A stretch of DNA of 64,000 bases, taken from Mauremys mutica. Its lineage: Eukaryota > Chordata > Testudines > Geoemydidae. This document shows positions 1 through 52,761 of this stretch, piece after piece. A program made the position numbers and the translations under genes. Location: NCBI RefSeq assembly GCF_020497125.1, contig NC_059075.1:29858003-29922002 (forward strand). Direction: 5' to 3'. Every line of letters begins with the position of its first letter. The stretch's first letter is position 1. Below the pieces are notes generated by a model that saw nothing but the letters and a program-made list of their open reading frames with translations, made no database searches and had not been told where the DNA came from.

Positions 1-1338
1 AAGAAAGGGAAAAAAAGGTGATCTGGAAAATTACAGGCCCATTAACTTGATCTCAATTGTATGCCAGATCTTGGAACAAAATTTGAAAGAGAAAGTAGTT
101 AAGGACATAGGGGTACATTGGGATAAAATCCAACATGGTTTTACAAAAGGCAGATTGTGCCAGACCAACCTGCTCTCTTTGAGAAGTTGTCTAAAAAATC
201 AGTTAAAGGAACTGCAGTAGATCTCATCTACCTGGATTTCAGTAAGGCATCTGATACAGTTCCACATGGGAAATTATTAGTTAAACTGGAGAGGTGGGGA
301 ATGAGAGAATTGAAAGGTAAGGAACTAGTTAAAGGGGAGATTACAACAGGCCATATTGAAAGATGAATTAGCAGGCTGGAGAGAGGTTACTAGTGGAGTT
401 CCTCAGGGATCGGTCTTGGTACCAATCTTATTTAAGATTTTCATTAATGACCTTGGCACAAAAAGTGAGAGTGTGCTAATAAAAAGTGTGGATGACACAA
501 AGTTGGGAGGTACTGCGAGGACAGAGGAGAAGTGGAATATCATTCAAGAAGATCTGGAGGACCTTGAAAACTGGAATTAGAGAAATTATAGAAATGGAAT
601 GAAATGTAATAGTGCAAAGTGCAAGGTCATGCACCTAGGGACTAACAATAAGACCTTTTGCTATAAGCTGGTGACACATCAGTCGGAAGCGACAGAAATG
701 GAGAATGACCTGAGTGTACTGGTTGATCACAGGATGACTATGAGCCGCCAATGTGATGCGGCAGTGAAAAAGGCTAATGCAGTCCAGGGATACATCAGGC
801 AAGGTATTTTCAGTAGAAATAGGGAAGTGTTATTGCCATTATACACGACACTGGTAAGACCTCAGCTGGAATACTGTGTACAGTTCTGTTTCCCATGTTT
901 AAGAAAGATTAATTCAAACTGGAACTGGTGCAGAGAAGGGCTACTAGGATGATCAGAGGAATGGAAAAACCTAACTTATGAGGGAGACACAAGGGGCTTG
1001 ACTTGTTTAACCTAACCAAATCAAGGCTAATGTTAACATGAGAATAAATGGATATAAAATGGCCATCAGTAAGTGTAGGCTTGAAATTAAGTGAAGGTTT
1101 CTAACCATCAGAGGAGTGAAGTTCTGGAACAGCCTTCCTTGGCCACAGTGTGGGGCAAAAAACCCTAACTGGCGTCAAGACTGAGCTTGATAAATTAATG
1201 GAGGGGATGGCATGATAAGATTGCCTACAATGGGATGTGGTCCATTTGCGACTGCTAGTAGCCAATATCCCTAAACACCATAAAGAGGCACTAGATGGGA
1301 AGACTGAGTTACTAGAGAGAATTCTTTCCCAGGTGTCT
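1..1338 (+). mobile_element. CR1-superfamily LINE, 5'-truncated, degraded reverse transcriptase plus 3' tail
   Basis: Reverse-transcriptase blocks appear in order across frameshifts and stops: an NYRPINL-like block near 35-55, the QHGFTKG block near 130-150, DFSKASDTV at about 235-258, GVPQGSVL near 395-420, the catalytic VDD (normally ADD) at about 487-510, and [12 protein letters not shown] near 850-890. The 3' untranslated part runs from about 1080 to 1338 and is cut off by the foldback element that follows. The reading frame is broken many times, so the copy is dead. It lies antisense in CHGA intron 2. The subfamily (CR1, L2 or L3 side) is not certain. Confidence 0.9.
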
Positions 1339-1664
1339 GGCACCCTAGGCAGAATTCGAGGGGCGGCATTTTGAGTGCTCCCCATGGGGCGCACGGGAGC
1401 TTCTGGTTCCGCTCCCATTGCGCCACCGAAGGACCCTCTGCCGAAATGCCGCAGGGGACAGCGGCAGTCATTGAGCTGCTCAATTGCCTGCTGCTGTTTT
1501 CCACGGCACATCGGCAGAAGGTCCTTCTTTGGCGGTGTGATGGGAGCGGAACCGGAAGCTCCCGTGCGCCCCGTGGGGAGTGCACAAAATGCCGCCCCCC
1601 CCACCCCCGAATCCTGGCGCCCTAGGCGACCGCCTAGGGTCACCTAATGGAAGCGCCGGCCCTG
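1339..1664. mobile_element. Foldback hAT-type element ending GCCGGCCCTG
   Basis: Two long arms, about 1339-1451 and 1504-1620, are reverse complements at roughly 85-90% identity, around a central segment of about 50 bp. The right end reads GCCGGCCCTG, the reverse complement of the CAGGGCCGGC terminus also seen at 46981, so it belongs to that hAT-type group. The matching left terminus is missing. It interrupts the 3' tail of the CR1 to its left. It has no protein-coding capacity. Confidence 0.75.
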
Positions 1665-1980
1665 GGTTCCCACAAAAAAGTTTTTGGTGGCCTCAGAGTG
1701 CAGTCACCAACTCTTGCTGGTGGCCATTCTGACAATTTTTCCTAAAATACTTAACTTTAGGAAAAAAACAAAGAAATATACATATATACATGTCCAAATT
1801 AGTGTAATTTATTTATGTAGGGTTTTTTTGAAGACTCAATAATAAAATAATGTACAGTTGTGTCTATTCTTTACTGGACCTAAACAGAATAGAAAAACAA
1901 ATAAGGTGCTTTGCATGTTCTTGTCTTTTTTTGTTGTTGTTTCTTTTGTGGGTTTTTTTTTTAATATAGACTTGCTAACT
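1665..1980. other. AT-rich interval, no gene
   Basis: No gene or clearly named repeat. It contains a small stem-loop (CCTAAA...TTTAGG, about 1741-1761) and T-rich runs near 1920-1965. It may be the remaining side of a larger DNA transposon that carries the adjacent foldback arms, but this is a guess. Confidence 0.4.
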
Positions 1981-2111
1981 AGTAAGTCTTCTTCTGTGAA
2001 AAGTGATACTTGTATGTTAATATCACTTTTCACAGCCTCACAGCTAGCTACTAAGTCTGTTGTGAAAAGTGATTAATAAACATACAAATATCACTTTTCA
2101 CAGCAAACTTA
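1981..2111. repeat. Nested inverted repeat with two perfect internal hairpins
   Basis: Hairpin 1 pairs 1994-2008 with 2021-2035 (15 bp perfect, 12-nt loop). Hairpin 2 pairs 2061-2073 with 2090-2102 (13 bp perfect, 16-nt loop). Both use the stem TGTGAAAAGTGAT. The two hairpins are also inverted copies of each other (1981-2035 against about 2057-2111), around a centre containing AGCTAGCT. A near-palindrome at 1969-1990 lies just outside. Probably a MITE or the core of a DNA transposon; the family is unknown to me. Confidence 0.8.
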
Positions 2112-2358
2112 CTCAGCCCCAGCAAGCTCAGGGACAAATTAAGCCCTGGATGGGGAGCTGAGGGAGGCACCAGGGGCCCAGAGCAATGGGAGGGGGGGTG
2201 ACCCCGAGGCTGGCTTCTGTCACCACACTACTGGCAGCCCGAGCTCAAAGCCCTGTGGCCAGATACCAGAGCCCGAGCCGGATTCCTGTGGCTGGCTCCT
2301 GCCACTGCGCAGCTGAAGCCAGGATCTGGAGAAGCCAGTGGGGGCTGGGGGTAATGGG
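2112..2358. other. GC-rich low-complexity sequence
   Basis: Runs of GGAG, CAGAGC and GGCTGG with no reading frame worth keeping. The same kind of sequence resumes at about 3169-3420, after the hAT element between them, so the hAT seems to have landed inside one GC-rich repeat. Confidence 0.5.
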
Positions 2359-3168
2359 TAGGGCCTGACCAAATTCACAGCCAAGAAAAACGTGTCACGG
2401 ACCGTGAAATCTGGTCTCCCCCTGTGAAATCTGGTCTTGTGTGCTTTTACCCAATATTATACAGAGTTCACGGGGTTGACCAGTGTTTCTCAAGCTGGGG
2501 GTCCTGACCCAAAAAGAATGTTGCAGGGAGGTTACAAGGTTATTTTAAGGTGTCATGGTATTGCCACCCTTATTTCTGCACTGCCTTCAGAGCTAGGTGG
2601 CTGGAGAGCTGCAGCTGTTAGCTGGGCACCCAGCTCTAAAGGCAGTGCCCTGCCAGCAGCAGTGCATAAGCGGGACTGCTGGCCGGGAGCCCAGCTCTGA
2701 AGGCAGAGTCGCCGCCAGCAGCAGCGCGGAAGTCAAGATGTCAGGGTGGCAATACCATACTAGGCCTTCTGCGCTGCTGCCTTCAGAGCTGGGCATCCAG
2801 AGAGTGGTGTCTGCTGACCGAGGGCCCAGCTCTGCAGGCAGCAGCACAGAAGTCAGGGTGGCAATACCATACTAGGCCATCCTGACTCCCATGCTGCTGC
2901 TGCTGACGGCTACTCTGCCTTCAGAGCTGGGCTCCTGGTCAGCAGCCACCGCTCTCCAGCTGCCCCGCTCTGAAGGCAGCACCACCGCCAGCAGCAGTGC
3001 AGAAGTAAGGGTAGCAATATCACATCCCCTCCTCAATAACTTTGTCTCACCTACAATTACAATACCATGAAATTTCAGATTTAAATAGCTGAAATCATGA
3101 AATTTATTATTTTTAAAATCCTATGACTGTGAAATTGACCAAAATGGACTGACTTTGGTAGGGCCCTA
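2359..3168. mobile_element. Non-autonomous hAT element with 8-bp target duplication
   Basis: The left end TAGGGCCTGACCAAATTCAC (2359) and right end TTGGTAGGGCCCTA (to 3168) are inverted termini. The flanks GTAATGGG (2351-2358) and GTAATGCG (3169-3176) match at 7 of 8 bases, the 8-bp duplication expected of hAT. The interior repeats a module around CTGCCTTCAGAGCTGGG in both orientations at least seven times (near 2580, 2630, 2690, 2780, 2830, 2920 and 2970). It has no transposase. Confidence 0.85.
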
Positions 3169-3606
3169 GTAATGCGGGAGGGGTGGTGAGCCTGGGGCCA
3201 GAGCCCGTGCCACATGGCCAGGGCCAGAGGCAGGGGCCAGGGTGGAGGGAAGCAGACTTGAGCCTGGGGCTGGAACCGGTCACCACCTGGCCAGGGGATG
3301 GAGTCCTGGGACAGAGCCCAGGGCCTGGAGATGGAGCCTGAAGCTCAGCAGCTATACCCCAAAGCCCCGTGGCTGGAGCCTGCCACCTCCCACCCCAGGG
3401 CTAAAGTCTGATCTCACTGCCCCTGGGAAGGGGGGGTACTCACTGGCTGCCTGCTCCTCCAGTGTTTGCGTCTCCAAAGTGGGGCAGGCCCAACCCCTGC
3501 TGGCAGCCCTGGGGGTGGGACCTCTGCTTCCCCAAAACCACCACCCAGGAGGCTACGGCCACAAGAAAAGCCCTTGGCAGCCACATTTTAGAAATATTGG
3601 TCTAGA
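3169..3606. other. GC-rich low-complexity sequence, no gene
   Basis: Continuation of the GC-rich repeat interrupted by the preceding hAT (GGGGCCAGAGCC-like units to about 3420), then ordinary sequence. Open frames here are compositional and show no recognisable domain. Confidence 0.5.
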
Positions 3607-4165
3607 TCAGGGGTGGGAAAACGACGGCGCGTGAGCTGCATCCAACCCACCAGCTGATTTAATCCAGCCCTCGAGGTCCCGCTGGGGGGCGAGGTCTGGG
3701 GCTTGCCCTGCTCCTGTACTCCAGCCAGGGAGTGGAGTCGGCGTCTGCTCCATGCAGCTCCCAGAAGCAGCAGCATGTCTCCCCTCCAGCTCCTACATTT
3801 AGGGGCAGCCAGAGGCAGCGCCTGCCGATAGGGGAGTGCATAGAGCCACCTGGCCGCGCCTCCCCATAGGACCCAGAGAGGGGATATGCCACTCTTTGAG
3901 GTAAGCACTGCCCAGAGCCTGCACCCCTGAGCCCCTCTTGTGCTCCACCCCCCTCCCCCAGCCCTAATCCCACTCCCACCTTCCAAACCCCTCAATCCCA
4001 GCCTGGAGCACCCTTCTGCACCCCAAACCCCTCATCCCCAGCCCCACCCCAGATCCTGCACCCCAGCTGGAGCTCTCACTCCCCCCACCCCATGCCCCAA
4101 CCCCCTTCACCAGCCCTGATCCCAGCCCAGAGCACCCTCCTGCACCCCAAACTCCTCATGTCCTA
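3607..4165. mobile_element. hAT-like terminus followed by C-rich minisatellite-like block
   Basis: Begins CAGGGGTGGGAAAAC at 3607, close to the common hAT terminus CAGGGGTGGGCAAAC. From about 3920 to 4165 it becomes degenerate repeats of CTGCACCCCAAACCCCTCA and CCCAGCCC, typical of the interior of some turtle repeats. I do not see a matching right terminus or a target duplication. Confidence 0.55.
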
Positions 4166-4599
4166 ATGTTCTAAATGAATGCTCATCTCTTTATAGCCTG
4201 AACTTCTTTTCAATTTCAGCAGGCTGGCCTTCTAAGAGTCTTAACCTCCTAAACTGTACTACTCACAAGAGATTCAGAACATTGTGGCTGCACAGTAAAT
4301 TAACACTAGTCAGCAATTTCCAGGTGCCAACAATGTTGCTTGTTAAGCAATCAGATGTATTCATTTATCAGCTAAAATAATTCAACTGTTCACAATTTGT
4401 AAATAGCGAATTTCTTTCAACCATTTGATTTTGCAGATTAAAGGGATTTCAGAAAGGGATAATAAAATGAAATATCTTCTTGTAAATACTTTCACTGTTT
4501 ATAAGGATTGCTTGGTAGACTAGAAGCATTAACATAATGAAAATAAAAACGCCTATGCTCCCTTTGGTATCACTCTCCTATACGACAAGCAACCCATTA

Positions 4600-4785
4600 A
4601 TATTAGTTTTACGTGTGCTAAAACACACCGCGCATCCACCAAACAAGACAAAGAGACAGATTCTGATACCCTTTCTCATGCTGAGTAGCACCTTACTCTA
4701 TGAGTAGTCCCATTTAAATCAATAGGACTTGTGGAGTAAGGTGTTTCTCAATATAAGTAAAAATATCAGAATCTGGCCCAAAGAA
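4600..4785. repeat. Decayed palindromic MITE-like repeat
   Basis: Contains GAGTAGCACCTTACTC, then AATCAATAGGACT, then GTGGAGTAAGGTG and a final AGAATCTGGCCC. These inverted and GTCAATGGGA-like blocks resemble the short palindromic repeats found elsewhere in this window. The boundaries are approximate. Confidence 0.45.
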
Positions 4786-6540
4786 ATGCTATAAACAAAC
4801 ATTTTGTGGTTCTATATGATCATTTTCTACCATGTCTGACTTATATTTTATGTCCCAAAGGAACCTAACATTCTTTACATGCTGATTTACACCCACACAT
4901 TTTATACTTGTACACATGCCTGAGATTCCCTTCACTCACCACAGAAATGCTGCCACGTCTGGGTGGAACTTGGCAGCTATTAATATGACAATTGTGTAGT
5001 CCCCACTCAGGCAAAACTCGCTTTGATTCCGCTGATTGTTTTCCCTGAGTAAGGTCTCCAGGTTCAGGCTCTAATACTCCACTGTGACATTACGTTCTCC
5101 ATAGATCTGTTCTAAGTAAGATTGTGGAATTAAATGCTGAAAAGGTCCCATCCTGCTGTATCTACACAGAAGAAAATCCCATTGAAGGGTTCAGGCCCTT
5201 AAAAGGAGTGAAACAAAAGATAAGACCCGCTGAAATATTTTCAGCAACAATAAAGGCCTTTAAGTGGGAAATACTGGCCTTCTGGGGCCCTGGAACTGAT
5301 GAAGGACCAAGAGTATTTCAAATGCTTTAAGAAGTTATGGTCAAACTCTCAGTGGAAGTAATTTTGTGTTAAGAAAATATGCCTAGCTATGGAGGAACAG
5401 CTTTCAGTGCTCAAACTTCCATTGCCCCCACCTGCACATGCGTAAATTTTACTCCACCTCTCAGCCAACATCAAGAACTAGGAACACAGGTCAACATGGC
5501 AGGCAGAATCCTACAATGGATGCTTTGGGCTGAAACCTCAAAGTCTTGCACTATGGGCAGGTTGATGAGTTTCTATTTACTCTGTAACTTAAAATATAAT
5601 TTTGCAGGTCTCACACTAGTGTGTTGGTAGCCTAATTACTCATCAGGGGCTTGATCCAATTCCTTCTAAAGTTAATAGAAGACCCCCACTGAAATCATTG
5701 GGAGCTGGACCAGGTCCCATTACAGGAGTTGGGATCATGAACAAACAGAGCTCTTGGGGAATAATTCAGATTTGGCGTAACCCCACTTACTTCCACCTCG
5801 TTACACCTACTTATACAAAGGCTGGATTTAGTCCTTTAATCTTAAAGGATTGGAAAAGGGGTTCTTCACACAGATGGTGCACTTAACTTTGGGGAAGACA
5901 TATCACAAAGCTGACTCAGAAAATCACCAGTTACAGTAGAGGGAAAATGATGGGTTTAAAAGGCTTCCTCAGATGGCAACCACTGAAGCAGTCTGCACAG
6001 AGCAGAAAGTGTTTCTGCTCCTTACCTACCCATGTAGCCTTTTACAATTACAGTCATTTGAACCAGCAAAAAAGACTGAGACAATAGCAAATGCCTTGCT
6101 GCATTCATGAGCCATCAACTTAGCTCACAGCACTGCCAGCAGGCTAGGAGTTCTAAACAAAGCAGCTGCAACAGCTGTTCGGGTTCCAGTCTGTAGACAA
6201 AGGAGGGGGAGTGTTTTCTTGTAGTACTTACACTGTAAGTAACAGTGATGATGAATGGTGGAGTGCAAGGGAGCGAGCATGGAGATTGACAGGAGCTTCC
6301 CCCCCCCCCCGTAAGGAAAAGGGAAAGCGCCTTTGGTGGCTTATCCTTGAGAGAAGATTTTGATTAACAAACACGTTCAACAGGCAGGGGATGAGGACTG
6401 GCATTTCTGCTCTTTTCGCAAATATTAGAGAAGTGTAATTAGCTAGTTTGAGAGAGAAGTTAATTTGAAAAGGTACATACCTGAAAGAATAATGTTAGAG
6501 AATTTTTGACTGCACCTCTCTCACAGCTAGGTAGGTTGAT
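4786..6540. other. Intronic DNA, no gene
   Basis: Nothing coding. A weak palindromic repeat of the TTGATCC...GGACCAGGTCCC type lies at about 5648-5720, and a 13-base C run at 6298-6310. The remainder looks unique. Confidence 0.5.
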
Positions 6541-6665
6541 AGGTAGATGTATGTAGATAAATAAGTAGGTTATTATACACATGTATAAGTATACATGCAT
6601 ATATATGTGCAAATACGTACATATGTATCTCTGTTATGCACACATACATACATGTGGGTGTGCAT
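6541..6665. repeat. AT/GT-rich simple-repeat tract
   Basis: Interrupted GTA, TAC and CATA motifs (TATACATGCATATATATG and similar) give a degenerate purine/pyrimidine-alternating tract inside CHGA intron 2. Confidence 0.6.
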
Positions 6666-7107
6666 ATAGAAAGATCTTGCTAAGCAAATCAAGATAGCTT
6701 AAGAAAGATTGACAGAAAAAAAAGTGAGTCCACATGCATGTGTGCACGTGCATAAAGTCTTTACATTTTCAACAAAGATGGCTCCAGATGCGTTTATAAT
6801 CAGTCAAATACAATGTAACCTTGACCATTCACACTCTCCTTTGTCTGTTGCTGAACTTATCAGGAGGTTGACAAAAACAAAAACAAACAAAAACAGTTTG
6901 AATTATGCATAAAATGTAAATCCAGAAAGAGGAGCAGATAATGCAGCTGGAAAATCTTTGCCCTAATAAGAAATGATTCATGCTTCCCTATTAACATTTC
7001 AAGTATTATTTCCAGATAAAAGAGTCCGAGGTCCCTGAGGTTTCTTGAATTACCAGCAAGAGAGACATCAGCACTCCAATTTTTAACAACACAGTCTCAG
7101 AGCTTAC

Positions 7108-7154
7108 CTTAGCATCCCCTTTATTCATTGGATTGGTGACCGGGAGGGAAATGA
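7108..7154 (-). CDS. CHGA: Chromogranin A, coding exon 2
   Basis: Read on the minus strand, this 47-nt exon is bounded by a pyrimidine-rich acceptor (ending TTTTGATTACAG, just right of 7154) and a strong donor (GTAAGC, 7107-7102). Joined to exon 1 it continues in phase and gives VISLPVTNPMNKGDAK, the first Val codon being split across the junction. Mammalian chromogranin A begins its mature chain LPVNSPMNKGD after an 18-residue signal peptide. Here the signal is also 18 residues, so cleavage is expected before Leu19. The protein is a soluble acidic prohormone of neuroendocrine secretory granules that helps granule formation and is cut into peptides such as vasostatin. The exon ends in phase 0 (46+47=93 nt). 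The next exon is not in the window. It is too short to show as a long open frame. Confidence 0.9.
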
Positions 7155-8017
7155 CTGTAATCAAAAGAAGGAAAGGATACCTGGTTAGTCTCCCTTTCCT
7201 GGCACATTTCCAGCGACCCGGGGCACGGCTGGGGAAACGCAGGCTGAGCGCTCCAGCTGTGGCCAGAATGTTAGCAGGAAGGTGGAATCTTGGGCTTGAT
7301 TTTCGACCATAAACGACACCAGCTTATTAACTATGGGCTTCACCAATCAGCAGTAATCGGGCGGACTCTAACCATAGGGCTTGGGCTTCTCCCTTAGAGG
7401 TTGACTTAAACAGGCCCCCAAAGTGAAGCAGACGGGACTGCAGGCGAGATTTTATCTGGCCAGACGTTTTGCAAGGATCAGCCTCATGTGCCGAATTCTT
7501 CCAACGCCAAGGCTCATGAAATCAAGCCCTTCCCGGTAGCCAGTACCCGTCCGGCTCCCGCTAGCTCTGAGCTAGGGGCTAGAGACCGATCATACGGCTG
7601 CTAGCTACAGAGAGACGGGCGATGGTTGCCTCTGCAGAGCAATGGAGGGGCGAGCTGGTGGCCAGATCGGGCTTTAAAAAGTGCCCGCGGGCGGAGATGA
7701 CCTTGCAAGTGTGCTCAGTAACTCAGTGCATCGCGGGGTGTATTCGGGGCACTTTCATTCCCCCCCACGCAGAGGCTTGTCTCAGCCCCCCCCCACCCTG
7801 CGCCAAGCAGACAGCCCTGGATGCCTGCGACCAGGCAAGGCTGTGGGGAAGCGCTGGCTAGAAACACCTTTGCGATCCCAGCGGCTCTCGATGCCCCAGC
7901 CGCCGCAAGCGGAGAGGCGCTGTCCTTGGTGCTGAAAGGACAGTCACTGCGGAAGAGCGTCCGGGGCCAGCCAAGGTCCCGACCCGAGCCCTGGGCGCCC
8001 CCCCGCCCCTCGCCTAC
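7155..8017 (-). other. CHGA: CHGA intron 1
   Basis: 863 bp between donor GTAGGC (minus strand, 8017-8012) and the exon 2 acceptor. The promoter-proximal half is GC- and CpG-rich. No repeat is recognised inside it. Confidence 0.85.
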
Positions 8018-8063
8018 CGTGCACCGCCAGCAGCAGGACAGCGAAGCCTCCTCTGCAGCCCAT
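8018..8063 (-). CDS. CHGA: Chromogranin A, coding exon 1 (start codon and signal peptide)
   Basis: The ATG at 8063-8061 (minus strand) sits in a good Kozak setting (GCC before it, G after). It opens MGCRGGFAVLLLAVH plus one nucleotide, then donor GTAGGC. This is a hydrophobic secretory signal with the Leu-rich core at residues 7-13; exon 2 adds the last three residues. The split after residue 15 matches my memory of the mammalian gene, where exon 1 encodes most of an 18-residue signal. No other start gives a frame that joins exon 2 in phase to the LPV...MNKGD mature terminus. The donor is weaker than consensus but acceptable. The gene would be transcribed from a TATA/CRE promoter about 220 bp upstream and should be neuroendocrine-specific. 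Calling it CHGA rests mainly on exon 2; the signal sequence itself is not conserved. Confidence 0.88.
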
Positions 8064-8283
8064 GGCGCCGGCAGGCCGGGGTGAAGGCTGGCCGGGTGCG
8101 GGATGATGCGCTCCTCCCCCTGCGGCGCTGGCGATCGGCTGAGGGCGAGCAGGGAACGCGGGGCTCTGAGCCGGGGCGGGGCGGGGCGCGGCCGATCCGC
8201 TGGCGGGATTAGCTCGTGTGTGGCCGCCTCTCCCCACAGCACCTCGCGTCCCCGCCGCCTGTGCTGAAGCTCCCGACAGGGCA
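8064..8283 (-). other. CHGA: CHGA 5' untranslated leader (predicted)
   Basis: The transcription start is placed about 30 bp downstream of the TATA box, near 8281. That leaves a GC-rich leader of roughly 220 nt before the start codon. I see no in-frame upstream ATG close to the start. The exact start site is inferred. Confidence 0.6.
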
Positions 8284-8303
8284 CTGCAGCAGCGGCCCCC
8301 TCC

Positions 8304-8335
8304 CTTATATACCCCGGCCCTCGGAAATGGCGTCA
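8304..8335 (-). promoter_or_regulatory. CHGA: CHGA core promoter: CRE-like site plus TATA box
   Basis: On the minus strand, TGACGCCA (8335-8328) is followed 16 bp later by TATATAAG (8311-8304). TGACGCCA differs by one base from the consensus cAMP response element TGACGTCA. Mammalian CHGA promoters are known to depend on a CRE a short way upstream of a TATA box, so the arrangement supports both the gene call and cAMP/CREB control. Confidence 0.75.
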
Positions 8336-8490
8336 GGAGAAAGCCGCCTCCCCCTCGCCCGCCCACCGCCAGCCCCTGCTTCGCGGGGCGCCCAGGCCCG
8401 CCGCGCCCTGCGGCTCGCACACGCTCCGCTGGCAGCTGCTGTTCAGCAAAGCTCGGGCCCCCCTCGCCGCCCACGCGGCTGGCTCAGGCA

Positions 8491-8597
8491 GGAAGGGAGC
8501 CAGTGAGCGGGTCACACCTTTCATTTTGGGTAACAAGCATAGAAGAGCTGGATCAACGTCACCCACTGAACAGGGCCAATTAGTGGGGTTGAGGGAG
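8491..8597. other. Distal CHGA promoter, no repeat recognised
   Basis: A short AT-balanced stretch between the CpG island and the first of three hAT elements. No site strong enough to name. Confidence 0.4.
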
Positions 8598-8860
8598 CAG
8601 GGGCGGCTCCAGGCACCAGCATGCCAAGCGCGTGCTTGGGGCGGCAAGCCATGGGGGCGTGCTCTGCCGGTCGCTGCGAGGGCGGCAGGCAGGTTGCCTT
8701 CTGCTGTCTGCCTGCGGAGGGTCCGCTGGTCCTGCAGCTTCGGCGGACCTCCCGCAGGTGGGCCGCCGAATCCGCAGGACCGGGGACCTTCCGCAGGTAA
8801 GCCGCTGAGGACAGCCTGCCTGCAGTGCTTGGGGCAGCAAAATACCTAGAGCCGGTTATT
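8598..8860. mobile_element. hAT-type MITE (CAGGGGCGGCTCC terminus)
   Basis: Left terminus CAGGGGCGGCTCCAGG at 8598. The right side ends TACCTAGAGCCGG near 8855, a decayed reverse complement. The interior is GC-rich with repeated GGTCCGC and CCGCAGG modules and no open frame of interest. A target duplication is not evident. Confidence 0.7.
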
Positions 8861-50151: not shown

Positions 50152-51672
50152 CACCATCATCATCATCACTCCCAGAATCGCACTGGTTGTTGGGGCACCA
50201 TCACTGATGAGCAATCAACCCAATTGTCTCCACCCCTGATGATTGTGTCAACCGCTGTCAGTGCTTGAGTCTCCGCGAAGTCCATTCCTGTCCACTCTTT
50301 TATGTTGTCAATCCATCTATTCTTCCGTCTACCTCTTCTTCTCTTCCCCTGTACTGTCCCTTGGAGGATGATCTTGGATAGGGCAGATGATGTGGTTACA
50401 TGGCCGTACCACTTCAGCTTGCGCTTCTTCACGGTCATCAGGAGATCTTCATATGACCCAGTGCATTGGGTGATGATGTTGCAGACCTCTTCATTAGTGA
50501 CGTGGTCAAAATCGGAGATGCTCAGGATTTTATGGAAGTATCTCAGCTCTACTACCTGTATTTTCCATTCAAGTTCTGCCATAAGGGTCTATGTCTCGCA
50601 CGCATACAGAAAAATGGAGATGACCAATGCGTGCAGCAGTTTCAGTTTGGATTCCAGGGAGATGTTCTTATTCCTCCAAATTGGCTTTGGCTTTGCCACT
50701 GCTGCTCTTGTTTGCACAGTTCTTGCCAGAATTTCTGCCTTTGATCCTTCTTCAGTGATGATTGCCCCCAAATATTTGAACTGTTTCATTGTTGCCAGCT
50801 CTTGTCCACTGACAATGATATGTGAGCTGATCCTGTCATGTTTGTTTGTCATCAGCTGGGTTTTCTCTGCACTGATTTCCATGCTGTATTTTGTGGAGGT
50901 TTCAGCCAATCGTTTCATAAGGTTGGCAAGATCATCCTCACTGCCTTCCCGGCCATCAGTGTCATCAGTGAACCGAAGATTTGAGATTGTTCGCCCTCCA
51001 GTGCTGACTGTGCACATGTGATCTTCTAGGGCAGGGGTCCCCAACCTTTTCAGGACCAGGGACCGGTCATGCCTGCGGAGGGAGCGCTCGTCCCACGGCT
51101 CGGGTAGACCTCCCGCAGGCATGGCCTGCGGGAGGTCCACCGGCTCCGGTTGAGCTGCCGCAGGCATGACTGCGGACGGTTTGCTGGTCACGCGGCTCAG
51201 CTGAACCGCCCGCAGGCATGCCTGGGCAGCTCAACCGGAGCCGGTGGACCTCCCGCAGGCGTGCCTGCGGGCGGTCCAGCTGAGCCGCGCGACCAGCGAA
51301 CCGTCCACAGTCATGCCTGCGGGAGGTTCACCGGAGCCCCGGGAGCAGCGGACCTCCCGCAGGCATGACTGCGGAGGGAGCGCTCGTCCCGCGGCTCGGG
51401 TAGACCTCCCGCAGGCACGCCTGCAGGAGGTCCACTGGGTCGGTTCGCGGCCCGGTTTGTAAGAGGCCGCGGACCGGTACCGGGCCGCGGACCGGGGGTT
51501 GGGGACCCCTGTTCTAGGGCATCAGTCATTATGCACTCCAAGTAGATGTTGTACAATGTGGGCGAAAGAAGGCAGCCTTGCCGGACTCCAACAGTGGTGA
51601 GAAACCACTCTCCTATTGTGCCATTGATGAGAACTGCACTGCTGGCCTTGGCATACAGTTGTTTAATGGTAA
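50152..51672 (-). mobile_element. RTE-type LINE, 5'-truncated, split by a hAT
   Basis: On the minus strand: GVRQGCLLSPTLYNIYLECI (about 51590-51530), TISNLRFTDD with the catalytic D-D changed to TDD (about 50995-50960), MEISAEKTQLMTN, FKYLGAIITEEGS, RNKNISLESKLKLLHALVIS and FLYACET, then VKKRKLKWYGHVT, ILQGTVQGKRRRGRRKNRW and IDNIKEWTGMDFA. The 3' end is a (ATG)n run at 50169-50152, the kind of simple-repeat tail RTE elements carry. At least one stop and frameshifts. A hAT sits at 51032-51511. Confidence 0.88.
51032..51511. mobile_element. hAT with perfect 8-bp target duplication, inside the RTE
   Basis: CAGGGGTCCCCAACC at 51032 and GGTTGGGGACCCCTG at 51511 are perfect 15-bp inverted ends. 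TTCTAGGG flanks both sides (51024-51031 and 51512-51519). The interior is CpG-rich and built from repeats of GACCTCCCGCAGGC and GCCTGCGGGAGGTC in both orientations. 480 bp, no transposase. Confidence 0.95.
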
Positions 51673-52761
51673 GAATAAGCTTACGACCAACCCTGAATTA
51701 TATCAATGTAAAACTGGACTAAGAGGGAGGAGAATCAAGCCCAATGAAGGATTACCTTAAACCATATGTAGTCCCCATTGATTTCAGTGGGACCACTTGT
51801 CTAGGAAGATGTTTCTGAACATGAGTGAGGGTTGCAGATTCTGGGTCTAAGTGATTTGCCCAAAAGTCAATGTTGGAATTGAAGGAAATATTGTCTAGGT
51901 TAAAACACAGGACTGGGAATGAGGAGATCTGGATTCTCTTCCTGGTTCTGCCGTAGACTTCTTATAATAAGTTTTCCCAACTAGAAAACAGGGATAATAC
52001 AGTTGACATACCTCAAAGAAGTACTAGGGCTTAATTCACTAACACCTATAAAGAATGTCACCGTTAAGGTCAACTGCACTGGTATTTCCCCCTTGTGATC
52101 TAGCAACAGCACCCACTCTAGGCTCCCGGCTTCTCACCTCTCTTGGGCAGTTACCCACATTGCTCTCCCTCCTGACGAGGGTTTTCCAGGCTGCACAGTT
52201 CCCTGCTCCATTGTGAGTTCCTCCAGCAAACCAGACGCCAGTGCCTACATTTTGCTTTTTCCTTAGGACTATAAACACCGTAATCGCCCACATTTAGAAG
52301 TTGCACACAGCTCTCTACCTCAAGAATAAATGTACTTGCTTAGAAAGGCATTACAGAGAAAACATATTACATCAATATAAGAGCCTACATGCATGCTAAT
52401 GAGGTCACTAGCGATCACCCCTCCAGCTCCAGCAAGGGCTCTGGCAGATGATCAGTCCTTCAGATCTCACCAAAGGGGTTTTCTGTTATGAACTTGTAAG
52501 CACAGAGACTGTGAATAGATAATCAGTCAGACAATATTTCTCTCCTCAGGGAGTAGCTTCAAAAGGCTGGGTATGGAGGTGGGAATTTGCATCTCTCCCT
52601 CCCACCACCTTTCTCAGGTATTTCCTCGCAAGCCCACTTAACATTGCTTATCCCAAAAGTTCCTTCTTATCCATCACAATGTTTAAAATAGTCTTTGAAG
52701 ATCATAACACTTCCCAGGATTTACATTGGCCATGTCTCCCCATAGAGACATTACATATAAT
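51673..52761. other. Intergenic DNA with a MIR-like piece
   Basis: 51890-52035 has a sense-oriented MIR-like order (GGACTGGGAATGAGGAGATC, GGATTCTCTTCCTGGTTCTG, AACAGGGATAATACAG). Nothing else recognised. Confidence 0.5.

Follow-up and report, generated by a model that had tools for sequence, protein, structure and literature searches.

Gene structure at the locus

The window analyzed here, a 64,000-nucleotide stretch (C4:29858003-29922002) of a Mauremys mutica assembly of 2.48 Gb in 595 contigs, contains on its minus strand two short exons that are almost certainly the first two coding exons (exons 1 and 2) of turtle CHGA, the gene for the well-known hormone-granule protein chromogranin A (Table 1). 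When spliced, they form 93 nt, or 31 codons, which are joined in phase 1 and translate to MGCRGGFAVLLLAVHVISLPVTNPMNKGDAK. The donor of exon 1 is GTAGGC, directly after position 8018 on the minus strand, while exon 2 is bordered by cttttgattacag before it, with the acceptor AG behind a pyrimidine-rich stretch, and by GTAAGC after it. The start codon stands in the context GGCGCCATGG, and no second ATG was found within 260 nt upstream of it. A preliminary description of this DNA had proposed exons of 46 and 47 nt, and their coordinates, lengths, splice dinucleotides, phase and translation match ours exactly. Its signal of 18 residues is likewise borne out, with LPV coming next in the spliced sequence at the predicted cleavage site, as expected for CHGA.

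Table 1 Features of the CHGA locus. Positions refer to the window, or to contig C4 where so marked
Feature	Position	Strand	Remarks
CRE-like octamer TGACGCCA	8328..8335	-	one mismatch to TGACGTCA
TATA-like box TATATAAG	8304..8311	-	248 nt upstream of ATG
CpG island spanning putative promoter, exon 1 and intron 1	7201..8850		500-nt windows
Probable 5′ UTR	8064..8280	-	start site near 8280 suggested by the TATA-like box
CHGA exon 1, coding part	8018..8063	-	46 nt; codons 1-15 complete, plus one base of codon 16; bulk of signal peptide
CHGA intron 1	7155..8017	-	863 nt; phase 1; GT-AG
CHGA exon 2	7108..7154	-	47 nt; end of signal peptide and start of mature protein LPVTNPMNKGDAK
CHGA intron 2, part in window	1..7107	-	whole intron 8273 nt
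CHGA exon 3	C4:29856743-29856836	same as exons 1-2	94 nt; begins 1166 nt past left edge of window
CHGA exon 4	C4:29856357-29856425	same as exons 1-2	69 nt
CHGA exon 5	C4:29852978-29853076	same as exons 1-2	99 nt
CHGA exon 6	C4:29849061-29849585	same as exons 1-2	525 nt
CHGA exon 7	C4:29847996-29848456	same as exons 1-2	461 nt
CHGA exon 8	C4:29843317-29843400	same as exons 1-2	84 nt

The remaining exons lie outside the window. Exons 3-8 were located by comparing the part of C4 between 29832001 and the left edge of the window with human CHGA, and their borders were placed by hand at splice sites with the human protein as a guide. The resulting model comprises eight exons, with all seven introns of the GT-AG type and all joins in phase, and spans 22,749 nt on C4 from ATG to stop. 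Its coding sequence of 1425 nt, including the stop codon, encodes 474 amino acids and is free of internal stops. Eight coding exons, with the signal peptide split over the first two, are the arrangement expected of CHGA. Intron 2 additionally contains diverged repeat units of 41 nt (window 3955-4159), present in three copies, two of which show 63% and 90% identity to the third, the reference.

Exons 1 and 2 are each shorter than 50 nt, and a Pfam search with the 31-residue peptide alone returned no match, so that one could read them as a chance likeness of two short open pieces beside splice-like dinucleotides. As a control, every ATG-N43-GT / AG-N47-GT pair on either strand was scored against three non-turtle CHGA N-termini (human, Apteryx and Struthio). 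The intron had to measure 60 nt or more and the two exon starts to lie within 5000 nt of each other, and pairs in which exon 2 scored below 0 were discarded. The real pair ranked at the top against all three references, with scores of 67, 86 and 90, and the second-best real pairs (47, 51 and 53) paired that exon 2 with a different ATG. In dinucleotide-preserving shuffles the maxima were 31, 34 and 29, and 0 of 100 came near the real score for any reference. This control, the in-phase continuation through exons 3-8 and the agreement of 31 of 31 residues with Mauremys reevesii CHGA together already refute a chance origin, leaving it a probability of virtually nil.

Identity of the encoded protein

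The 474-residue protein matches the Pfam family Granin at 6.9e-43 (147.9 bits against a cut-off of 25), and PDB chain 6r2x_A, 'Chromogranin-A', matches residues 58-81 at 2.3e-8. In a protein database search, 7990 candidates were scored and 631 matched at E <= 0.001, of which the best 120 were listed. The best match was chromogranin-A of Mauremys reevesii (P0001), with 98% identity over 100% of the query and a Granin domain in both proteins; the two differ by seven substitutions and by two extra residues in M. reevesii, differences that probably mark a related species or another allele, and their first 31 residues are the same. Among the 120 of 631 matches listed, P0002-P0017 are turtles and P0018 is a crocodile, the rest being birds, three further turtle entries and two squamates. 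The closest full-length relatives listed are named chromogranin-A, not CHGB or SCG2. For one of them, the 472-residue chromogranin-A of Platysternon megacephalum (P0004), one source gives the name '6.8 kDa mitochondrial proteolipid'; the record is apparently mislabelled.

The two residues that separate the Mauremys proteins in length fall at the junction of exons 6 and 7 (C4:29849061 / 29848456), where the GE of M. reevesii is absent (TPSDASDNK vs TPGESDASDNK). This gap may reflect a true insertion or deletion where the exon ends, or the public gene model may have placed the splice site differently; exons 1 and 2 are unaffected by either. Cys 35 and Cys 56 of the precursor, both encoded in exon 3, fit a predicted N-terminal disulfide loop, and the third cysteine, Cys 3, lies in the signal peptide. 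The protein contains nine dibasic pairs, two of them overlapping, and the precursor is composed of 27% D+E with a computed pI of 4.6.

Chromosomal neighborhood

Exons of the Golgin_A5 family (GOLGA5) lie upstream on the CHGA strand at C4:29941730-29960196, which accounts for six of six matches to this Pfam family, with the nearest scored exon 19.7 kb past the right edge of the window. Downstream, at C4:29814055-29819654, are Ins134_P3_kin exons (ITPK1) in convergent orientation on the opposite strand; two of the four matches to this family are on C4 and two on C15. Judged by the Pfam families of the flanking exons, CHGA thus has its expected GOLGA5 / ITPK1 neighborhood. In human, where CHGA lies at 14q32.12, the gene order is also GOLGA5-CHGA-ITPK1. 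From the positions of the flanks, the window therefore holds the 5′ part of CHGA and most of the gap between CHGA and GOLGA5. The preliminary attribution to CHGA is upheld by these flanks together with the in-phase exons 3-8, the 98% match to turtle CHGA and the identical 31-residue N-terminus. The gene itself is ordinary and already known, being annotated in related turtles.

CHGA had also been called the only host gene in the window. This is compatible with the distance to Golgin_A5, with the absence of host-gene Pfam domains from the 10 of 20 window ORFs of at least 120 aa that were searched (nine of the 10 had no match of any kind) and with an Rfam search of the window that gave no match at gathering thresholds. 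A reverse-transcriptase fragment occurs on the minus strand at 50589-51191 (RVT_1, 7.4e-5; DUF6451, 7e-4; both below the Pfam cut-offs) and overlaps a CpG-rich stretch (50801-51800) and the beginning of a 95-nt-period tandem array (51108-51435).

Related granins and the question of a second copy

A Granin profile search of the assembly, in which the best eight candidates were scored, gave five matches. Two are on C4 just left of the window and are exons of the same CHGA gene, one on C9 is SCG2 (30 of 32 residues of secretoneurin) and two on C3 are CHGB. An intact CHGA elsewhere in the assembly, which the preliminary description had named as a counter-argument, is therefore not among the best eight candidates, the matches outside C4 being one SCG2 and two CHGB. 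It is also highly improbable that the two exons are a pseudogene, a degenerate or incomplete copy of the 5′ end of CHGA, with the working gene at another site: no further CHGA came from the same search, and the gene is intact on the same strand to its stop codon, 22,749 nt from the ATG.

CHGB in this assembly appears to be laid out alike, which could favor assigning the two exons to another granin, CHGB or SCG2. Its exon 1 encodes MPPLALLSLLGAAALA plus one base. For the short exon that would follow, a pattern script proposed two candidates, one of them ISSMPMEKDHVEEM. As in CHGA, the signal peptide is split by a phase-1 intron, and a short candidate exon 2 precedes an exon 3 with the Cys loop; unlike CHGA, CHGB has a different large exon and occupies a separate locus. 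With CHGB on C3, SCG2 on C9 and the C4 gene 98% identical to annotated turtle CHGA, such an assignment is exceedingly improbable, and the downstream exons on C4 already refute it.

Putative promoter region

We searched for CpG islands in 500-nt windows with GC of at least 0.55 and an observed/expected ratio of at least 0.65. The island described previously is real: it spans 7201-8850, and the window has four islands by this criterion in all. Between 8000 and 8500, GC is 0.75 and the observed/expected ratio 0.80. The TATA/CRE promoter proposed alongside it held up in part. A TATA-like box is present, its 8-mer TATATAAG occurring five times in the window on both strands together, but the CRE component is weaker than had been stated: it is only suggestive because the octamer is one base off and a perfect TGACGT[CA]A is absent from the entire window. 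Taken together, the CpG island, the TATA-like box and the CRE-like octamer are consistent with a putative CHGA promoter. A bacterial promoter scan, which is irrelevant to a vertebrate gene, found nothing.

Missing 5′ ends in public CHGA models

We classified the N-termini of the best 120 of the 631 homologues with our own regular expression and checked them by eye. A signal core of the exon-1 type followed by exon 2 was found in 81 of the 120 listed entries, two of the 81 without Met; another 29 had all or part of exon 2 but either no exon 1 or something else in its place, and the last 10 had neither exon. For the 20 turtle entries listed, in which some species appear twice, the corresponding numbers were 11, two and seven. 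A recognizable exon 1 is thus lacking from 39 of the 120 listed sauropsid models (of 631), 10 of which also lack exon 2, so the 5′ end of CHGA is often missed, in agreement with the preliminary view that it is easily overlooked. For the same 39 of 120, public databases present a secreted protein without its signal peptide, a good share of the CHGA models listed. Many of the listed entries are flagged as partial, and assemblies may lack a first exon that is rich in GC; exon size is therefore not necessarily the cause.

Two sea-turtle entries, Eretmochelys imbricata P0007 and isoform X3 of Dermochelys coriacea, P0009, begin with MLTGAKER.SWKEDKHC.K where the signal peptide would be expected, and this N-terminus runs on into a normal exon 2. 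The two species belong to different families. Searches with both versions of this N-terminus gave nothing convincing in the window (best E 0.28 each), and in the 36-kb gene region the best hit of each was a piece of exon 5 (E 0.29).

On the strength of these two entries, the main first exon could be placed elsewhere, under an alternative promoter, with the exon at 8018-8063 playing a minor part. We regard this as very unlikely, given that neither the window nor the gene region convincingly matches the sea-turtle N-terminus, that 11 of the 20 turtle entries listed have the canonical N-terminus and that the other Dermochelys isoform, P0008, is canonical as well. Another proposal is that turtle CHGA might start from an alternative first exon, which would substitute for the signal peptide and yield a non-secreted chromogranin A. 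This too seems improbable, and since neither the window nor the gene region holds a match, it is kinship with the sea turtles that would suggest it for this species. The N-termini of P0007 and P0009 may instead be annotation artefacts.

Discussion

Our results fix the CHGA locus in this assembly and demonstrate that two exons of less than 50 nt each can be read correctly from raw sequence. By analogy with known CHGA biology, transcription would proceed leftwards from the CpG-island promoter, with the TATA-like box near 8311, and the eight exons would be joined into the mRNA. Exon 1 and the start of exon 2 would then encode the 18-residue signal by which the acidic prohormone enters the secretory pathway, cleavage before LPVTNPM would create the start of the mature protein (and of vasostatin), and the prohormone would presumably be delivered to secretory granules. 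What our analysis itself shows is the sequence, the phase of the exons, the complete downstream gene, its homology and its synteny; use of the promoter, in vivo splicing, cleavage of the signal and sorting to granules are inferred from that biology.

Among the papers listed by our literature searches, none dealt with the structure of the CHGA gene in turtles, which does not prove that none exists. For human CHGA, the accessible part of PMC3734370 mentions SNPs in the promoter and 3′ region and contains nothing on exon layout, and the accessible parts of PMC4132265 and PMC9160393 contain nothing on CHGA exons or promoter elements. At the protein level, BLASTP aligned the turtle sequence with the human sequence in the N-terminal stretch only, where 82 of 117 aligned positions (70%) are identical. 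By tblastn, exons 7 and 8 also match human CHGA, while the acidic middle exon 6 gave no match to it. In gene structure the two are alike: according to the accessible part of PMC12074958, human CHGA has eight exons, with most of its 18-residue signal in exon I and the loop cysteines in exon III, and the turtle gene likewise has eight exons, a signal encoded mostly by exon 1 and its loop cysteines in exon 3.
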